This document shows, piece by piece, positions 4,418 through 22,804 of a stretch of 64,000 nt of DNA; positions within the stretch are counted from its first letter, which is position 1, and each line of letters begins with the position of its first letter. The notes under the pieces were generated by a model that had not been told where the DNA came from, ran no database searches, and worked only from the letters and a program-made list of their open reading frames with translations. The translations under genes were made by a program, and so were the position numbers. This stretch comes from Patescibacteria group bacterium (GTDB lineage: Bacteria; Patescibacteriota; Microgenomatia; UBA1406; GWC2-37-13). Where the stretch lies: positions 1 to 64,000 of the forward strand of contig JAOAFZ010000004.1 of assembly GCA_026415975.1 (NCBI GenBank). The letters run 5' to 3'.

Positions 4418-6190
4418 ATGCTTCCCGAACAAACCGGATCTCGAAATCCGGATAGACTATGCGGTGCTCCCGACTCTGCGTGGAACGTCTCGCTTGGCGA
4501 GCGTATGGAATCGCTCCGCTCGCAACCGTCGTATTTGCTCACATTCGAAACCCAGGCTATGCTCGCCCGGCTTGCTCCGGGAAGACGTATTCCTGGCGAA
4601 ATGGTACATCGATACGAGAGGGCGCTGTTAGCCGCGTTTCAGCTGGGTGTGGATGTGCCGGTGATTCCGCTTGCTTACCAGGAGTTATATGCCCCACTGG
4701 AAAAACTCCTGGATGACGAGCTTGCCCAAGCCAAGGAGACGGGGAGGATAGTTGTCAACTTTGACCGCTTTATAGGTATCGGCCGCCGCGATGAGGGTGC
4801 GCTGGTTACGATGAGCTTTGGACGAATGCGCTACCCCGGCGAAACCAGGGACCGCATGTGCCAGCGCCAGGGCGATGCTCCAATAGAGGAGCAGTTTGCC
4901 TATCTGGAGCACCGTGCAGCGAAGCTGGGTACGCGCAATCTGGTGCTCGTAGATGACGGGGTATCGACCATCGAAACCACCGAGAGCTATCTGGAGGAAT
5001 TCGAAAGGCATGGTTTTCGGGTTGTGCGGATTGTTGCCGGCGTTGTGCCGGAAGCTGCCGAAGGCGACTGGGCAACACGGCAGTACCTGGAAGACCGCGG
5101 GATCGAGGTAGTACCGGTAATTACCATCGCGAAGCCACTAGACTGGGTCTGTGCCCGTGACGGGAATATCTTCGGCGGGAAGAATATGCCGATAAGAGAG
5201 ACACTTTCCACAGACCAGGGCGAAGTGCCATTGATCCGTACCGCTGCCTATTTCCTCCCCTTTTCGGACGGAGCCAGTGCCAGCTTCGACCCCACCCGCC
5301 TTGCGCAGGTAAGCCGGGCGCTGCTGGAGGCAAATGATACCCTCTTTACCGAACTGAAGCAGCTGCTGGGCACCAACAGGATTACGCTGCGGTACTTTGC
5401 GGAGCATGGTTTCTCGCTCCCCACGAGTGCATTGGGCATCCTCCCCGATCCCACACCAGAGATGGATGTGCAGGAGTATAACAACTGGTGCCGCCGCGCC
5501 GCTCAAGCCTACACACCCGACCTGGCGGTATCGTTTACCCCGGCATTCCAGGAAGACCGCGGAAACGAACCGTACCTTGATGATTTGTATCCGGAACTGC
5601 AAAACCGAGTTACGATCATCTGCGCTCCCTCAGGCTGCGGGCGTACGACCGTGATGCGGAAGATCATGAAAGAACGCCCGAGTGCCGCCTGGGTACGCCG
5701 CACGACTTCCCGGAGAATGCGGGAAGGTGAAACACCGACCGAGATCGAGTGCACGACCCGGGAAATAATGCAGAGAGCCGTTGCGGAAGGTGATATGCTG
5801 TCAGTGTGTAAGTACATGGATCAACTCTATGGCGTCCGCCTCTCCGAACTGCGCAAGCAGGTGGCAAACGGGGCTTCCGAGCTTTATGTTGAGGGTACGA
5901 TTGAGGTTATGGGGCTTGCGAAGCGGTTGCGAACGGCCCTGGTGGTCGTCATGCTACCAGACTCTCAGGAGGCTTTCGCCCAGCGAATAGCCGCCCGGGA
6001 CGGGAACGACGACGAAACAAACCGCCGTGCGACTACCAGTATAGGACACCTCGAGGTGTATACCCAAAATCTGCAAGCCATGCTACTAGCCAACAAGATA
6101 CACGCGGTGGTAATCAACTATACCGGAAATCCCGATGGTGCGGTTGTCGACATTATGAATCAGCTCGGCCGATGGAAACGATACTCATAG
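4418..6190 (+). CDS. Phosphoribosyltransferase-like / guanylate kinase-like fusion protein
   Basis: About 590 residues. The N-terminal half has the PRPP-binding loop of class I phosphoribosyltransferases, VLVDDGVSTIET at about residues 173-184. The C-terminal half starts with a P-loop (ICAPSGCGRTTVMRKI, about residue 400) followed by WVRRTTSRRMREGE, the TTR-x-R-x-GE region of guanylate kinase that binds GMP. The combination suggests making a nucleoside monophosphate from base plus PRPP and phosphorylating it. A nucleoside hydrolase gene overlaps its 3' end by 19 bases, which supports a role in purine salvage. The ATG at 4418 is preferred to the more upstream 4268, because the latter would translate through both leader hairpins. 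The N-terminal 150 residues and a stretch around 300-390 match nothing I recognise, and substrate specificity cannot be read from sequence. Confidence 0.72.
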   Translation: MLPEQTGSRNPDRLCGAPDSAWNVSLGERMESLRSQPSYLLTFETQAMLARLAPGRRIPGEMVHRYERALLAAFQLGVDVPVIPLAYQELYAPLEKLLDDELAQAKETGRIVVNFDRFIGIGRRDEGALVTMSFGRMRYPGETRDRMCQRQGDAPIEEQFAYLEHRAAKLGTRNLVLVDDGVSTIETTESYLEEFERHGFRVVRIVAGVVPEAAEGDWATRQYLEDRGIEVVPVITIAKPLDWVCARDGNIFGGKNMPIRETLSTDQGEVPLIRTAAYFLPFSDGASASFDPTRLAQVSRALLEANDTLFTELKQLLGTNRITLRYFAEHGFSLPTSALGILPDPTPEMDVQEYNNWCRRAAQAYTPDLAVSFTPAFQEDRGNEPYLDDLYPELQNRVTIICAPSGCGRTTVMRKIMKERPSAAWVRRTTSRRMREGETPTEIECTTREIMQRAVAEGDMLSVCKYMDQLYGVRLSELRKQVANGASELYVEGTIEVMGLAKRLRTALVVVMLPDSQEAFAQRIAARDGNDDETNRRATTSIGHLEVYTQNLQAMLLANKIHAVVINYTGNPDGAVVDIMNQLGRWKRYS

Positions 6191-7083
6191 ATACGGACCC
6201 CGGCGTGGACGACTCCATCGCCCTTGCCACCGCCTGTGCGGCGGGTATGCCGGTAACCGGCATTGCCACGGTGTTCGGGAATGCAGGCATAGACGATACG
6301 ACCCGGAATGCCTGTACGATTCTGGAGGTAATGAAGAGCGACATTCCGGTCTATCGCGGTGCCGCGCGACCCCTAGCCGGCGAACCGGTGCTTCCGGTAT
6401 CGCACGGAGAGAACGGTATGGGCGGGTTTCGATTGGCGAAACTGCGAAAAAAACCCGAAGTGGAGTCCGCGATAGCCTGGTACCTTCGCACCCTCGAGTC
6501 CGCCACGGTACCGGTTACCGTTGTCTGTCTGGGCCCGGTGACCAATATCGCGCTGGTTTCGATACTCCGGCCCGATCTGGCAGACCGTATCGGCGAGCTC
6601 GTAATTCTTGGCGGGGTATTCCGCGGCGGCGGGAATATGACCCCGGTAGCCGAGTTCAACACCCTCAACGATCCTCTGGCGCTAGCACATGCGGTTAGCC
6701 TGCGGTGTCCGCGGACGATTATCCCGCTCGAGGTGTGCCGGAAGGTACTCTTTACGAAACAGGACTTCGACGTCGTGATGAACCGCCGCCTCCGGGAGAC
6801 GTTTACCCGGATCACCGGTGTGTTTATCCGGTACTACACATCAGACGACGAGTACGCGGGCTTTGCCGGTGCCGTAATGTACGATCTACTCGCTATGGCG
6901 TATTTGCTGGAATCGGAGCTTTTCCGGTTCGATGACGCCGATGTGGCTGTAGAGACCACCTCTCCGCTTACCCGGGGACAGACGATCCGGCTGCCGACAC
7001 GGGAAAATCCCTGCCGGATCGCGACATTCGTGGATGCAGACGGAGTAAAGCAGGTGTTTCGCGACGCGGTAAACCGGGTATAA
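6172..7083 (+). CDS. Nucleoside hydrolase (IunH/RihA family)
   Basis: A 303-residue protein with the diagnostic N-terminal calcium and ribose-binding motif DTDPGVDDSIAL (residues 7-18), followed by GNAG, LGPVTNIAL, LGG and the conserved PVAEFNTLNDPLAL region. Length is typical of the family. These enzymes cleave ribonucleosides to ribose and free base in the cytosol. Here the freed base could feed the phosphoribosyltransferase encoded immediately upstream, with which it overlaps by 19 bases. The HisA-like gene follows after 7 bases. Purine or pyrimidine preference is not determinable. Confidence 0.9.
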   Translation: METILIDTDPGVDDSIALATACAAGMPVTGIATVFGNAGIDDTTRNACTILEVMKSDIPVYRGAARPLAGEPVLPVSHGENGMGGFRLAKLRKKPEVESAIAWYLRTLESATVPVTVVCLGPVTNIALVSILRPDLADRIGELVILGGVFRGGGNMTPVAEFNTLNDPLALAHAVSLRCPRTIIPLEVCRKVLFTKQDFDVVMNRRLRETFTRITGVFIRYYTSDDEYAGFAGAVMYDLLAMAYLLESELFRFDDADVAVETTSPLTRGQTIRLPTRENPCRIATFVDADGVKQVFRDAVNRV

Positions 7084-16924: not shown

Positions 16925-17112
16925 TGGTGTATTTATACAACCACGCTCGAACCTATTTTAGCAAAAATCTCTGACTGAAACCAATCGCTCCGCCTCGCCG
17001 CCAGCGCATAATCGCTCGGACGGCTACGCTTCCAACGATCTGGTGTGACGGAATCGCCCTTCTGCCACGTCCTTACTTTTGTTAGGTTGTTTGTTACTTG
17101 TGGGGAATTTTA
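16925..17112 (+). repeat. Left arm of 188-bp inverted repeat (IR-A)
   Basis: The sequence starting TGGTGTATTTATACAACCAC recurs in reverse complement at 20373-20561. The outer 130 or so bases appear identical; the inner 55 bases differ at roughly ten positions. The repeat contains no gene. It ends at GGGGAATTTTA, a few bases before the promoter of the riboswitch. Confidence 0.9.
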
Positions 17113-17121
17113 CTTATGTGA

Positions 17122-17127
17122 TATACT
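17122..17127 (+). promoter_or_regulatory. -10 box of the nrd operon
   Basis: TATACT within GTGATATACTGT, just inside the left repeat and immediately upstream of the riboswitch aptamer. Initiation about 7 bases downstream would place the whole aptamer in the transcript. No clear -35 box was seen at the usual distance. Confidence 0.5.
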
Positions 17128-17129
17128 GT

Positions 17130-17300
17130 ATTCAAGCAGTTTGTATGGTGAAGTGAGGTGTAAATCCTCCACTGTCGCGCAACGGTAAAGTCCGATCCCA
17201 TGCAATTTGACTTCTTGTTGGAGTCCTGCTCAGGCTCGCGCCAAGCCGTCTGCGTATGTTTTCCGCAACACTTGGTGTCCCAGCCAAGTTTTTTTTATTT
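17130..17300 (+). promoter_or_regulatory. Cobalamin riboswitch with terminator, controlling nrdBA
   Basis: The core GGTGTAAATCCTCCACTG followed by TCGCGCAACGGTAA is the conserved heart of cobalamin aptamers, as in the variants upstream of actinobacterial genes. AGTCCGATCCCA and a GGAGTCCTGCTCAGGC hairpin follow. At the 3' end CTTGG (17271-17275) pairs with CCAAG (17284-17288), then eight T form an intrinsic terminator 17 bases before the nrdB ATG. A second CCAAG near 17241-17245 can pair with the same CTTGG, giving an evident antiterminator. Cobalamin repression of a B12-independent class I reductase through such a switch is known from Streptomyces nrdABS. The exact 5' boundary is uncertain. 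Confidence 0.78.
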
Positions 17301-17316
17301 ATATAAGCAAAGTAAT

Positions 17317-18619
17317 ATGCAAATAACTACCTTAATAAAAAGAAACAATACACTCGAGGATTTCGATGTAAAAAAAATAATCTTTACGATACACAAAGCG
17401 ATGATTGCTAAGGGAATTGGCAACACAAAAGACGCGGAAAAGGTATCGAATATTGTTCTTGCAAAACTGAACCGCAATTTTTCTGAAAAATGGCATAAGA
17501 ATACCGCGAGTAACGAACAAATTTACCCAAATGTGGAGGAGATTCAGGATATAGTCGAAGAGTCGCTGATGGAAAGCGGATATCACGATGTCGCTAAGGC
17601 ATACATCATATACAGACAAAAACACGACGTTGCTTCGAAAAAGAGACTTGTTTAAAAAAAGAACAGAGTTAAAACCTTATGAATATCCGGAGCTCTACGA
17701 ATATGTAAGTGCGATACGGCACTCTTATTGGATCCACACGGAATTCAATTTCACAAGTGACGTCCAGGATTTCAAAGTAAATGTTAACGAATCAGAAAAA
17801 ACTGCAATTCAAAACGCAATGCTTGCTATCGCTCAAGTGGAAGTCGCGGTCAAGACATTTTGGGGAGACATGTATAAAAAAATACCCAAGCCGGAAGTTG
17901 GCGCTGTTGGCGCAACCTTTGCCGAGAGTGAAGTGCGCCATATACAGATGCCTATTCCCATCTGCTTGAAATTCTGGGAATAAACGATGAATTCAAAAAT
18001 ATCAAAAACATTCTTGCTCTTATCCGACGGCTGAATTACCTTGAGAAATCAATAAAAAACGCTCGAAGCGAAGACAATAGAGAATACAGCCAATCAATTC
18101 TACTCTTTTCTCTGTTCATTGAACATGTATCTTTGTTTTCACAGTTTTTGATTATTATGTCGTTCAACAAACATAAAAATCTTTTTAAGGGTATTTCAAA
18201 TGCAGTAGAAGCAACCTCAAAAGAAGAGCAAATTCACGGATTGTTCGGCATTGATCTTATCAACATAATAAAAAAAGAACATCCTGAATGGTTTGATAGT
18301 GAGTTTGAAGAAACAGTTATTAACCTTTGCAATGAAGCATTTGAAACAGAAAAGGCAGTTATTGATTGGATTTTTGAAAAAGGAGAGTTGGATTTTATGT
18401 CAAAAAAAGTGATAATCGAGTTTATTAAACAAAGATTCAATAATTCTCTTGAGAGCATAGGCATAAACAAAGTTTTTGCTACAAGAGAGAGTCTTCTTAG
18501 GCAATCGGATTAGTTTTATGACGAAATCATTACCACTAAACATGGAGATTTTTTTTAATAAGAAGTCGATAAATTACAACAAAAAGAGTAAGAGCATTAC
18601 AAGCGATGATTTATTTTAA
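17317..18619 (+). pseudogene. nrdB: Class I ribonucleotide reductase small subunit with N-terminal ATP-cone, interrupted
   Basis: The reading begins with an ATP-cone (QITTLIKRNNTLEDFDVKKI ... YHDVAKAYIIYRQKHD, about residues 1-100) and passes straight into an R2 protein: YEYPELYEYVSAIRHSYW, VQDF, FAESEVRH, EHVSLFSQF, SKEEQIHG hold the acidic and histidine metal ligands, and DAYSHLLE the expected radical tyrosine. The C-terminal tail INYNKKSKSITSDDLF is recognisable. Four lesions break it: one extra A in a run at 17638-17642, a two-base gain near 17942, TAG for Trp at 18511-18513, and one extra T in the run at 18549-18556. R2 forms the radical for the large subunit. In this subclass the ATP-cone gives allosteric on/off control through the small subunit. 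As written the gene cannot be translated whole. Confidence 0.85.
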
Positions 18620-18641: not shown

Positions 18642-20374
18642 ATGTATTGGTTAAACGAAAACAGCAGAAAATTTTTAGCAAAAGGATATCTTATGCAGGG
18701 TGTTGCCGCCGAAGATAGAATTCGTGAAATCGCCACGCTAGCCGAAAAGTATTTGGATAAACCTGGTTTCGCGGATAAATTTTACGACTACATGTCTCGT
18801 GGATTTTATTCTCTTGCGTCGCCAGTATGGTCAAATTACGGACTCTCAAGGGGCTTGCCTATTAGTTGCTTTTCAAGCTATATAGCCGATGATATGGCAC
18901 GCATTCTCTACACTCATGCCGAAGTTGGAATGATGACGAAATACGGCGGTGGCACAGCTGGTCATTTTGCCGACGTAAGACCTCGCGGATCAACCATCAA
19001 AGACAATGGTTATTCTTCGGGGGGCCGTTCACTTCATGGTGCTTTTTGACAATTTGATAAATATTGTCAGTCAGGGTTCTGTCCGTCGCGGCCATTTCGC
19101 GCCATATCTACCCGTCGAACATCCGGATATAGAAGAATTTTTGAACATCGGCAAAGAAGGGCACCACATTCAAGAATCCACATATGCCATAACTGTTACC
19201 GACAAATGGCTATAAGATATGAAAAATGGCGATCAAGACAAAAGATGAATTTGGGCAAAGATAATCCAGCGTAGAACGGAAATCGGATATCCATATATCT
19301 TTTTTACTGACACTGTAAACAACGACACTGTTGACGTATACAAGGACAAAAACATGAGAATCTACGGGAGCAATCTTTGCTCGGAGATATGCCTGCCGAC
19401 GAGCGACGAAATATCGTTTGTTTGTTGCTTATCGTCAATGAATTTACGTCATTATAATGAGTGGAAGGATACCGATGCGGTTGAAACAATAACGATGTTT
19501 TTGGACACCGTTATTTCGGATTTTCTGGTACGACTAGAAAGTATGCGTGACAGCTCTGACCCGCACAAAAAAACCGCTTTCTACTTTATGCAAAGAGCAT
19601 ACAAATTTGCCAAAGAACATCGTGCACTCGGCTTGGGTGTTTTGGGTTGGCATACTTTTCTTCAGGAAAACAACATCGCTTTTGAAAGTGAGGAAGCTAC
19701 AAAATTGAACAAGGAAATATTCAGACTGATTCACGAAAAAACTTATAGCGCATCAAAAGCGATGGCCAAAGAATATGGCGAGCCCGAACTGCTCAAAGGT
19801 TATAGCCGTCGTAATTCTACCCTCATCGCTATTGCCCCTACTACTTCATCGGCATTTATCTTGGGCCAGGTTTCTCAAAGTATAGAGCCGATTATGTCGA
19901 ACGTCTTTGTCAAAGACGTGGATAAGATGAAGGTAACAATAAAAAATCCAACCCTAGAGAGATTGCTTGAAAAAAAAAAGGAATAAATAATTCCGAAGTT
20001 TGGAATAAGATAAGAGAAAACGATGGTTCGGTTCAAAATCTTGACGAGCTGACGGATCACGAGAAAAAAGTATTTAGAACCTTTAGCGAAATAGATCAAA
20101 AAGTAATTATTGACCAAGCGGCGGATAGGCAAAAATATATTGACCAATCTCAATCTCTTAATCTTATGATTGATCCCACCATGCCAGCCAAAGAATTAAA
20201 TGCGCTCTATTTGTATGCCTGGGAAAAAGGTGTTAAGACTCTATATTATCAACATAGCATGAATGCTGCACAACAATTTGGAAGGAAAAAATTGATGGAG
20301 TTAGAAGAAAAGAAAAATTCGCCCAGGACACGCAGTATTGCTTCTGGTGGCTTATGTTTATCATGTGAAGCATA
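18642..20374 (+). pseudogene. nrdA: Class I ribonucleotide reductase large subunit without ATP-cone, interrupted
   Basis: The product starts directly at the catalytic barrel (MYWLNENSRKFLAKGYL), with no ATP-cone, complementing the cone on NrdB. Conserved blocks are LPISCFSSYI (active-site Cys), MMTKYGGGTAG, GSVRRGHFAPYLPVEHPDIEEF, SNLCSEICLP (radical Cys), LGLGVLGWH and IAPTTSSAFILGQVSQSIEP, and the redox pair CLSCEA at the end. Lesions: one extra G in the run 19019-19024, TAA at 19213-19215, TGA at 19246-19248, and an indel in the ten-A run 19970-19979. The frame between 19025 and 19970 is otherwise constant. The reaction is reduction of ribonucleotides to deoxyribonucleotides. The small number of other substitutions argues for recent loss or for consensus errors. 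Confidence 0.85.
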
Positions 20375-20561
20375 AAATTCCCCTATAAGCAATAAATAAC
20401 CTTGCAAAAGTAAGGGCGCGGCGGAAGGGGGATTCCGTCACACCAGATCGTTGGAAGCGTAGCCGTCCGAGCGATTATGCGCTGGCGGCGAGGCGGAGCG
20501 ATTGGTTTCAGTCAGAGATTTTTGCTAAAATAGGTTCGAGCGTGGTTGTATAAATACACCA
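20373..20561 (-). repeat. Right arm of 188-bp inverted repeat (IR-A)
   Basis: Reverse complement of 16925-17112, near identical over the outer 130 bases. Its inner edge overlaps the last codon of nrdA (TAA at 20372-20374), and its outer edge abuts the recombinase 3' end, so the last codons of the recombinase frame (VFIQPRSNLF) are read from the repeat. Confidence 0.9.
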
Positions 20562-22106
20562 AAACAGAACTTTTTCGGCTTTTTGAGAGCCAGATCGTGG
20601 GCGACGCACAGCGCCGCCCATTGATTTTGCCCCGATGAATCCTTGCCGCTCGGCGCGCGCAGGCGAGCCTCGCGGTTGGCCAAAACTAGGTTCGAGCCGA
20701 ACAAAGTTCGGCAAGCAACCTTTTTCGCAAAAAGGTTGCTCTCTTGTGCGATTTTAGGCAGAGATTCTGCCTCTTTTATCCAATCAGCCATCGGTTCGAG
20801 CCAGCCAGTCCGCTTTTGTTCAAGATTGAAAGATTGTTCTTCCAGCAACTTTTTCTCGCTCAACAATTTTGCTTTTTCTGCACGATAGGTTTCTTGCTCG
20901 ATAATCTGCTCTGAGTAGCCATCAAGAAGTCGCTGGAGTTTAAGCGAGATAGTTTTGATTTTCTTTCGTGCCTCTTGAACAAAAGCGGTTGAGGATTGGG
21001 CGGCTTCCGTTTTGTCTTTTTCTAACATTTTTCGTAGTTCTGCCGCCCAATCCGGTTTCAAAGAAAATTTTTGAAGCAATGATGATAACTGTTCGTCCAA
21101 TTTCTCTTGGCGAATACAAGGTTAGGGACATTTGAAGTCCTTTCATTTTTTGGTGCAACGATAACAAGTATAGTAGTGGACATTGCCGTTTTTCCGCTTT
21201 TTAACCTTGTATTCGCCAGTTATCATCATGTTGCAGGAAGCGCAGGAAAGTAAGCCGCAAAATGGCTGTGGTTCATTCTTGGATTTTTGCGGCTTGCCCC
21301 GCAATTTCAAAACTTCCTGCACCTTGTCAAAAATTTTCTTTGAAACTACTGGCTGGTGCTTGCCTTCGTGAATTTCGCCAGCATAGCGAAAATGGCCGTA
21401 ATAAAATGGATTGGAAAGGATAAAAGAAATTCTGTCTCTGTGGAGTCGCTTGCCACCACTCGACAATATGCCGTTTTGCGCCAAAAAGTTTGAGATGTCT
21501 TCAAGTCGGCTTTCGTTTTTGGCGTACAACTCAAAGGCGCGGCGAATAACGGGAGCTCTCTTTTTGTCCACGACGATAGATTTTGTCTGCACATCGTTGA
21601 TATATCCAATCGGAGCTAAACTCGGATACTCGCCGCGCCTCATTTTTTGGCGCAATCCGCGCTTCGTATTTTCGACAAGCGAATCCACATAGTATTTGCT
21701 TTGCCCAAAGGCGATACTCAACATAAATTTTCCTTGCGAAGTATTTTCTGCCCAAAAGGTGGGAAATTTAAGTATCGCCAAATGCCCGCAATCCAAAAGA
21801 TAGATTACTCATCCGCCATCAACAGAATTGCGCGCCAGTCGGTCGGGATGCCACGCCAAAATTCCATTCGCTTCACCACTTTCTATCCGATTGAGCATGT
21901 CATTGAAAATCGGTCGGCCCGGAATTTTGGCCGATTGTTTTTCTACAAATTCCTCAACAATAAGTTAAGCCTTCATTTTTCGCAAAGGCGCGCAATTTTG
22001 TAATTTGAGCTTCAATACTCAAAACTTGCTTGTCTTCCACATCAGTGGACTTGCGGGCATACAAAAAGAATTTTTGCGGTGATAAATTATTTTGCATAGT
22101 GTTCAT
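20525..22106 (-). pseudogene. Serine site-specific recombinase, interrupted
   Basis: Reading from ATG 22106, the catalytic domain begins KFFLYARKSTDVEDKQVLSIEAQI, with the nucleophile serine in ARKS, then GRPIFNDMLNRIESGEANGILAWHPDRLARN. The recombinase domain (GLRQKMRRGEYPSLAPIGYIND, DRISFILSNPFYYGHFRY) and zinc ribbon (CGLLSCASCNMMITG ... YYTCYRCTKK) follow, then a coiled coil (KTEAAQSSTAFVQEARKKIK ... LLEEQSFNLEQKR). This is the large serine recombinase layout, about 520 residues. Lesions: one-base gain near 21957-21966, TGA at 21809-21811, TGA at 21143-21145, TAA at 21122-21124. Such enzymes integrate, excise or invert DNA at short att sites. The gene reads away from ssrA, opposite to the copied 3' end beside it. 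Confidence 0.85.
20562..20755 (-). repeat. Inverted repeat IR-B, copy inside the recombinase 3' end
   Basis: The last roughly 190 bases of the recombinase coding region recur in reverse orientation at 22259-22404. About 135 bases match with only two or three differences; a further block (AAAATCGCACAAG) matches after a 47-base gap present only in the other copy. Confidence 0.85.
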
Positions 22107-22203: not shown

Positions 22204-22258
22204 GGGTCGTTATAGCAAAAATTTTTTTGTTTGGCAAAGAAATAAAAGAAAGAATTTC

Positions 22259-22404
22259 AAAATCGCACAAGACGAACCTAGTTTTGGCCAACCGCGAGGC
22301 GCGCCTGCGCGCGCCGAGCGGCAAGGATTCATCGGGGCAAAATCAATGGGCGGCGCTGTGCGCCGCCCACGATCTGGCTCTCAAAAAGCCGAAAAAGTTC
22401 TGTT
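22259..22404 (+). repeat. Inverted repeat IR-B, truncated copy touching ssrA
   Basis: A partial copy of the recombinase 3' end in opposite orientation, with an internal 47-base deletion. It ends at TTCTGTTT, directly followed by the 3' end of the tmRNA gene. The open frame through it continues into the tmRNA and is not a gene in its own right. Confidence 0.8.
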
Positions 22405-22406
22405 TG

Positions 22407-22804
22407 TGTGGAGATGCCCGGAGTCGAACCGGGATCCAGCACGGCCGGTTTATACAAGTTTAGCGAGAGATAGACCGCTTTTTTTAAGCAGCCCAACAGT
22501 CGGTTAAAAGATTGTCGGGAAGTGGAACGAACCGCGGCGTCCCGCGACCGTATCCCGGTTGGTTATATCCGTGTTGTTGAACCGGGAGGAAACTTCACGG
22601 ATTGAAACCTCTTTGCTTATGCAAAGACTGCGGGACGATACGCGACCTGTGCAGGCGCCTTGAGGGCGTCTACGAGATCAGCGAAGACCGCACGTACGGT
22701 TTCTTTGGTTCTATCTGCTTTAGCAGGTATTTTTTTGGATTTGACGGATACCTCCGCCCTCGCCTCGTATAAAAGTGCACGTACTGTCGATGCCTGTCAT
22801 CCCC
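22407..22804 (-). ncRNA. ssrA: tmRNA
   Basis: On the minus strand the RNA begins GGGGATGACAGGCATCGACAG, the conserved tmRNA 5' end, and closes with GGTTCGACTCCGGGCATCTCC. GGGGATG and CATCTCC pair over seven positions (one G-U) to form the tRNA-like acceptor, with a normal T arm. Length is about 398 nt. The tag frame ends RPAVFA-TAA, the TAA (22617-22619) lying in the loop of a CTTTGC/GCAAAG hairpin as expected for helix 5. CCA is not encoded: the next bases are ACACA. Stalled ribosomes are rescued together with SmpB, encoded 3 kb away. An integrated element abuts the 3' end. The 5' boundary is set by the acceptor stem. Confidence 0.92.

Follow-up and report, generated by a model that had tools for sequence, protein, structure and literature searches.

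A cobalamin riboswitch was identified directly upstream of class I ribonucleotide reductase genes in the analysed window, a 64,000-nt stretch of DNA from a Patescibacteria group bacterium (contig JAOAFZ010000004.1). The element is very probably a terminating AdoCbl riboswitch of a horizontally acquired class I nrdB-nrdA operon, with the ATP-cone on NrdB, that was recently pseudogenized, leaving the switch as a well-preserved relic. Since nrdB and nrdA are both pseudogenes, the switch in this genome no longer controls a working reductase.

The presence of a cobalamin riboswitch at 17122–17316, as put forward in the original prediction, could be confirmed by cmscan of the 64-kb window, which revealed a match to the AdoCbl-II family (Rfam RF01689) at 17138–17208 on the forward strand with 41.9 bits (E 1.2e-6), above the gathering score of 36.5 bits. 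The prediction had named RF00174 as the family to be searched; the cobalamin assignment stood, with RF01689 as the best clan model here, but RF00174 itself was not found at the site, and its whole-genome search reported only a second riboswitch. The aptamer was 97% identical over 17136–17204 to that of locus L109 (JAJOLD010000004.1, a Paceibacterota MAG), where the matching leader precedes intact nrdB and nrdA genes. By analogy with known cobalamin riboswitches, the window aptamer would bind AdoCbl. Its L5 loop (CGCGC, 17176–17180) is complementary to the loop L13 (CGCGCCA), and from this complementarity the two are predicted to be kissing-loop partners; both are unchanged in L109, so the pair displays no covariation. 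The AdoCbl-II riboswitches of the window genome's own family differ in L5, most of them carrying UGCC in this loop together with a hairpin such as CCCCGAGCAGGGA directly 5' of the start codon. The forward strand upstream of the riboswitch showed no sigma-70-like promoter.

Downstream of the aptamer, three helices could be assigned. P13 (17233–17247; strands 17233–17236/17244–17247) consists of a GGCU/AGCC stem closed by L13, and its closed form holds one strand of the antiterminator. The antiterminator (17238–17278), obtained as the free-folding MFE, pairs 17238–17245 with 17271–17278 over 8 bp, and the intrinsic terminator (17270–17296) comprises a hairpin at 17270–17289 (strands 17270–17276/17283–17289) and a T8 tract at 17289–17296. 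These helices share strands and are mutually exclusive, and the motif positions agreed exactly with those predicted beforehand (CCAAG at 17241–17245, CTTGG at 17271–17275, CCAAG at 17284–17288, T8 at 17289–17296); the proposed terminator/antiterminator logic therefore lay where it had been placed, and it was also kept in L109. The platform at 17228–17300 folded with -21.5 kcal/mol (z -3.2) and the terminator alone with -8.7 kcal/mol (z -2.8). Free folding gave -28.3 kcal/mol for the antiterminator form, -25.3 for the terminator form and -23.1 for P13 with the terminator, placing the antiterminator ahead by 3–5 kcal/mol without ligand.

Conservation of the platform was assessed helix by helix over four sequences (window, L109, L140 and L157) because the linkers in a six-sequence alignment do not align. 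Identity of the L109 leader to the window was 97% in the aptamer, 93% in P13, 78% in the terminator and 41–60% in flanks and linkers. L109 keeps 19 of 19 helix pairs, and two of its substitutions each preserve two alternative helices simultaneously. Every helix pair is also kept in L140, while L157 loses a single antiterminator pair (7/8) and has a poor T tract; the four P13 pairs and the terminator stem are kept in all three.

Cobalamin riboswitches in general use an L5-L13 kissing loop (PMC9600662), and both the ligand and the switching direction proposed here follow from that general behaviour. With AdoCbl bound, L5 would kiss L13, whereupon P13 would close and capture the CCAAG strand. As P13 takes one strand of the antiterminator, the latter could not form, the hairpin at 17270–17289 would be permitted and transcription would stop, giving an OFF switch upon ligand binding. 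The class I enzyme would then be off in the presence of AdoCbl, with the B12-dependent NrdJ working; in its absence the 8-bp antiterminator would win and nrdBA would be transcribed.

The class I nrdB expected downstream of the switch was present (PF03477, PF00268), but working class I reductase genes were not. The nrdB pseudogene (17317–18619, forward strand) encodes an N-terminal ATP-cone and a class I small subunit, and alignment to the intact nrdB of L109 revealed three frameshifts (insertions of 1, 2 and 1 nt) and one nonsense codon. The nrdA pseudogene (18642–20375, forward strand; PF00317, PF02867) is of the NrdE-prime type, with TIGR02510 as its best model, and carries two frameshifts (insertions of 1 and 2 nt against L109) and two nonsense codons when compared with L109 and L108. 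The reading frames of the two genes are thus interrupted by five frameshifts and by three premature stops, located at 18511, 19213 and 19246. In L109 the ATP-cone is found on NrdB and is missing from NrdA, and with PF03477 in its nrdB piece the window unit is, judged by domain content, NrdAi/NrdBi-like, its N-terminal ATP-cone being confined to the small subunit. Divergence of nrdA by codon position between the window and L109 was 0.149, 0.071 and 0.543, with 54% of third positions differing, and between the two intact genes of L109 and L108 it was 0.151, 0.083 and 0.592. Since the pattern of the window resembles that of an intact gene pair, the loss of nrdBA looks recent. Long silencing by B12 may have been the cause of this decay.

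The unit lies in a foreign, decaying island beside the tmRNA gene, not in a core regulon. It is bounded by a 187-nt inverted repeat, whose left arm (16925–17111, forward strand) is 93% complementary to the right arm (20375–20561, reverse strand) and which has no further copy anywhere in the genome. Adjacent to it is a broken large serine recombinase (20537–22103, reverse strand; PF07508) with at least one frameshift near 21965, as determined by tblastn with intact relatives (frames of 508–666 aa). The recombinase unit is bounded by a 138-nt inverted repeat, with a left arm at 20557–20694 (forward strand) 97% complementary to the right arm at 22273–22410 (reverse strand), which abuts the 3' end of the tmRNA gene (22406–22804, reverse strand; RF00023, 81.2 bits). 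The arms of the repeats differ from each other, so a simple duplication in the assembly can be dismissed. At the opposite end of the island, no copy of the tmRNA 3' end was found that could represent an attachment-site repeat. The inverted repeat at the tmRNA (20557–20694, 22245–22410) also contains, in inverted orientation, a copy of the recombinase CDS 3' end.

Intact counterparts were searched for in 98 loci surrounding nrdA relatives, using a covariance model derived from 16 aptamers (including those of the window and L109). The aptamer was found directly upstream of nrdB in seven genomes (L109, L140, L145, L157, L169, L136 and L149), all with open genes, among them Patescibacteria lineages (including a Kerfeldbacteria genome, L157), the spirochaete Alkalispirochaeta alkalica (L145) and the flavobacterium Formosa algae (L169). 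Rfam confirmed the aptamers of L109, L140, L145 and L169, that of L169 being a full RF00174-type aptamer, while those of L136, L149 and L157 were identified only by the 16-aptamer model. A match in L137 sits downstream of nrdA and was left out of the count. The full terminator platform is present in L109 and L140, and the nrdB match of L145 covers residues 109–433 only. The L109 unit lies between 90-nt direct repeats (L109:2560–2649 and 6154–6243; 97%); their sequence repeats the 3' end of a sensor-like gene lying upstream and hints at insertion or duplication. The same genome (G754) also encodes a truncated reductase large subunit of 367 aa (L200:4557–5660) with two ATP-cones that ends before the barrel domain.

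The state of the genes could be read differently, as a working riboswitch over a working class I reductase whose disruptions are assembly or sequencing errors. All five indels are insertions, several of them within homopolymers, and some may accordingly reflect sequencing error; the codon-position divergence is still like that of intact genes. However, each of the three nonsense codons results from a base substitution when compared with either relative, the neighbouring recombinase is also broken, and open reading frames elsewhere in the contig are long, with a coverage of 89%; this explanation is therefore considered unlikely. A leader that persisted beyond its operon, serving today as an independent small RNA terminated by B12 or acting on another target, would fit an aptamer 97% identical to that of L109 in front of broken genes, but recent loss of nrdBA accounts for this conservation without a new role, and we regard such a function as very improbable. 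Least credible of all is a chance combination of a terminator and an aptamer-like sequence without riboswitch function: consensus scans of shuffled sequence do yield 0.4 terminator-like sites per 600 nt, but the Rfam score is above threshold, the alternative helices are conserved and the element recurs before nrdB elsewhere. A relic riboswitch before a recently inactivated operon thus remains the preferred reading.

The original prediction had also implied a B12-dependent class II reductase elsewhere in the genome, and the search for nrdJ bore this out. An intact NrdJ was located on the same contig (TIGR02504, 559.9 bits; cut-off 399.95), along with an intact PduO adenosyltransferase (155.8 bits; cut-off 108.45) and an intact NrdR, read from its sequence. 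The contig with NrdJ and PduO further carries an intact DUF4430 protein, followed by the second cobalamin riboswitch (RF00174, 39 bits; C5:75826–75892, reverse strand). A 388-aa protein (G000 contig C5:74623–75789, reverse strand; L013:10623–11789) starts 37 nt past this second riboswitch and had no Pfam or NCBIfam match. Its homologues (L016–L044, 10–31% identity) occur behind AdoCbl-II matches in some 20 further genomes of the family; they share zinc-ribbon-like C-terminal Cys pairs, and a PDB profile search gave no significant match. Together they form a candidate B12-regulated Patescibacteria family.

A class II reductase was also found in six of the seven genomes with a riboswitch-led nrdB. 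The L157, L169 and L149 genomes encode an NrdJ scoring above its cut-off, and those of L109, L140 and L136 encode RTPR-type proteins whose PF21995 insertion domain exceeds the Pfam cut-off but which stay below the TIGR02505 cut-off; none was detected in the L145 genome at the NrdJ and RTPR thresholds applied. The class II reductase of the L136 genome (L204:1450–4821) contains an insert resembling an intein, in which a LAGLIDADG domain was recognized (PF14528 over cut-off, PF14890 below). Among 43 sampled genomes that lack a riboswitch at nrdB, 6 had a class II reductase; the association gave a one-sided Fisher p of 3.6e-4, and counting only NrdJ over cut-off (3/7 vs 4/43) p was 0.048, both figures resting on thresholds set post hoc and 43 hand-chosen genomes, and being uncorrected for relatedness and MAG gaps. 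On the NrdA tree, the riboswitch label needed six changes, four of them forced by starred branches.

With regard to the origin of the unit, no close NrdB homologue was found among 372 other sampled genomes of the window's class, and vertical inheritance within that class was rejected on this basis. In a 380-genome sample of the phylum, only six other genomes, scattered over families, had a close NrdB (59–68%), and these six had no Rfam riboswitch. An 81-row quick tree placed the window NrdA nested in a Nomurabacteria/Paceibacterota clade (SH-aLRT 99). Given this placement, and a riboswitch unlike most of those of its own family, the leader and genes most likely arrived together; they may also have been exchanged separately, since the closest NrdA relative, L108, is without the leader. 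No sequence was common to the flanks of the L109 unit and the window contig. A viral origin was also rejected, as viral contigs hold NrdA relatives (39–67% identity) but none with a riboswitch above the Rfam threshold; the exact aptamer pattern had no match in viral contigs.

The switching principle itself is already known, and no new mechanism is involved. In Streptomyces coelicolor, as described in PMC4991794 (after Borovok et al. 2006), a B12 riboswitch lets AdoCbl repress the class I operon nrdABS, and the genome encodes a class II NrdJ. The window agrees with this description in its cobalamin riboswitch before class I genes and in the presence of NrdJ, but differs in its Patescibacteria host, the nrdB-nrdA order, the ATP-cone on NrdB, the short AdoCbl-II aptamer with a terminator platform, and the pseudogenes. 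NrdAi/NrdBi of Leeuwenhoekiella blandensis (PMC5794259) likewise has an N-terminal ATP-cone on NrdB, none on NrdA, and a coexisting class II reductase; unlike it, the window genes are broken and riboswitch-led, the sections of that source drawn on here mentioning no riboswitch. The seven units described above share with the window a cobalamin riboswitch directly 5' of an ATP-cone nrdB, but their genes are open. Among the papers covered by the literature search, none combined Patescibacteria, riboswitch and cobalamin. The lineage, the NrdB type, the relic state and the recurrence in Patescibacteria are the new details.

These results indicate a reduced-genome Patescibacterium that uses and senses B12, and the phylum joins those with class I reductase genes behind a B12 switch. 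It is possible, although we propose this tentatively, that riboswitch-nrdBA serves as a B12-gated backup reductase in portable form, passing from one Patescibacteria lineage to another and being gained or lost according to the presence of a class II enzyme, the window copy, with its bounding inverted repeats and adjacent recombinase, having been caught just after inactivation. The co-occurrence of riboswitch-led nrdBA and class II reductases in distant lineages constitutes a testable regulatory rule, and the window adds a new example of a backup enzyme that was silenced and is decaying, with its regulator still legible.
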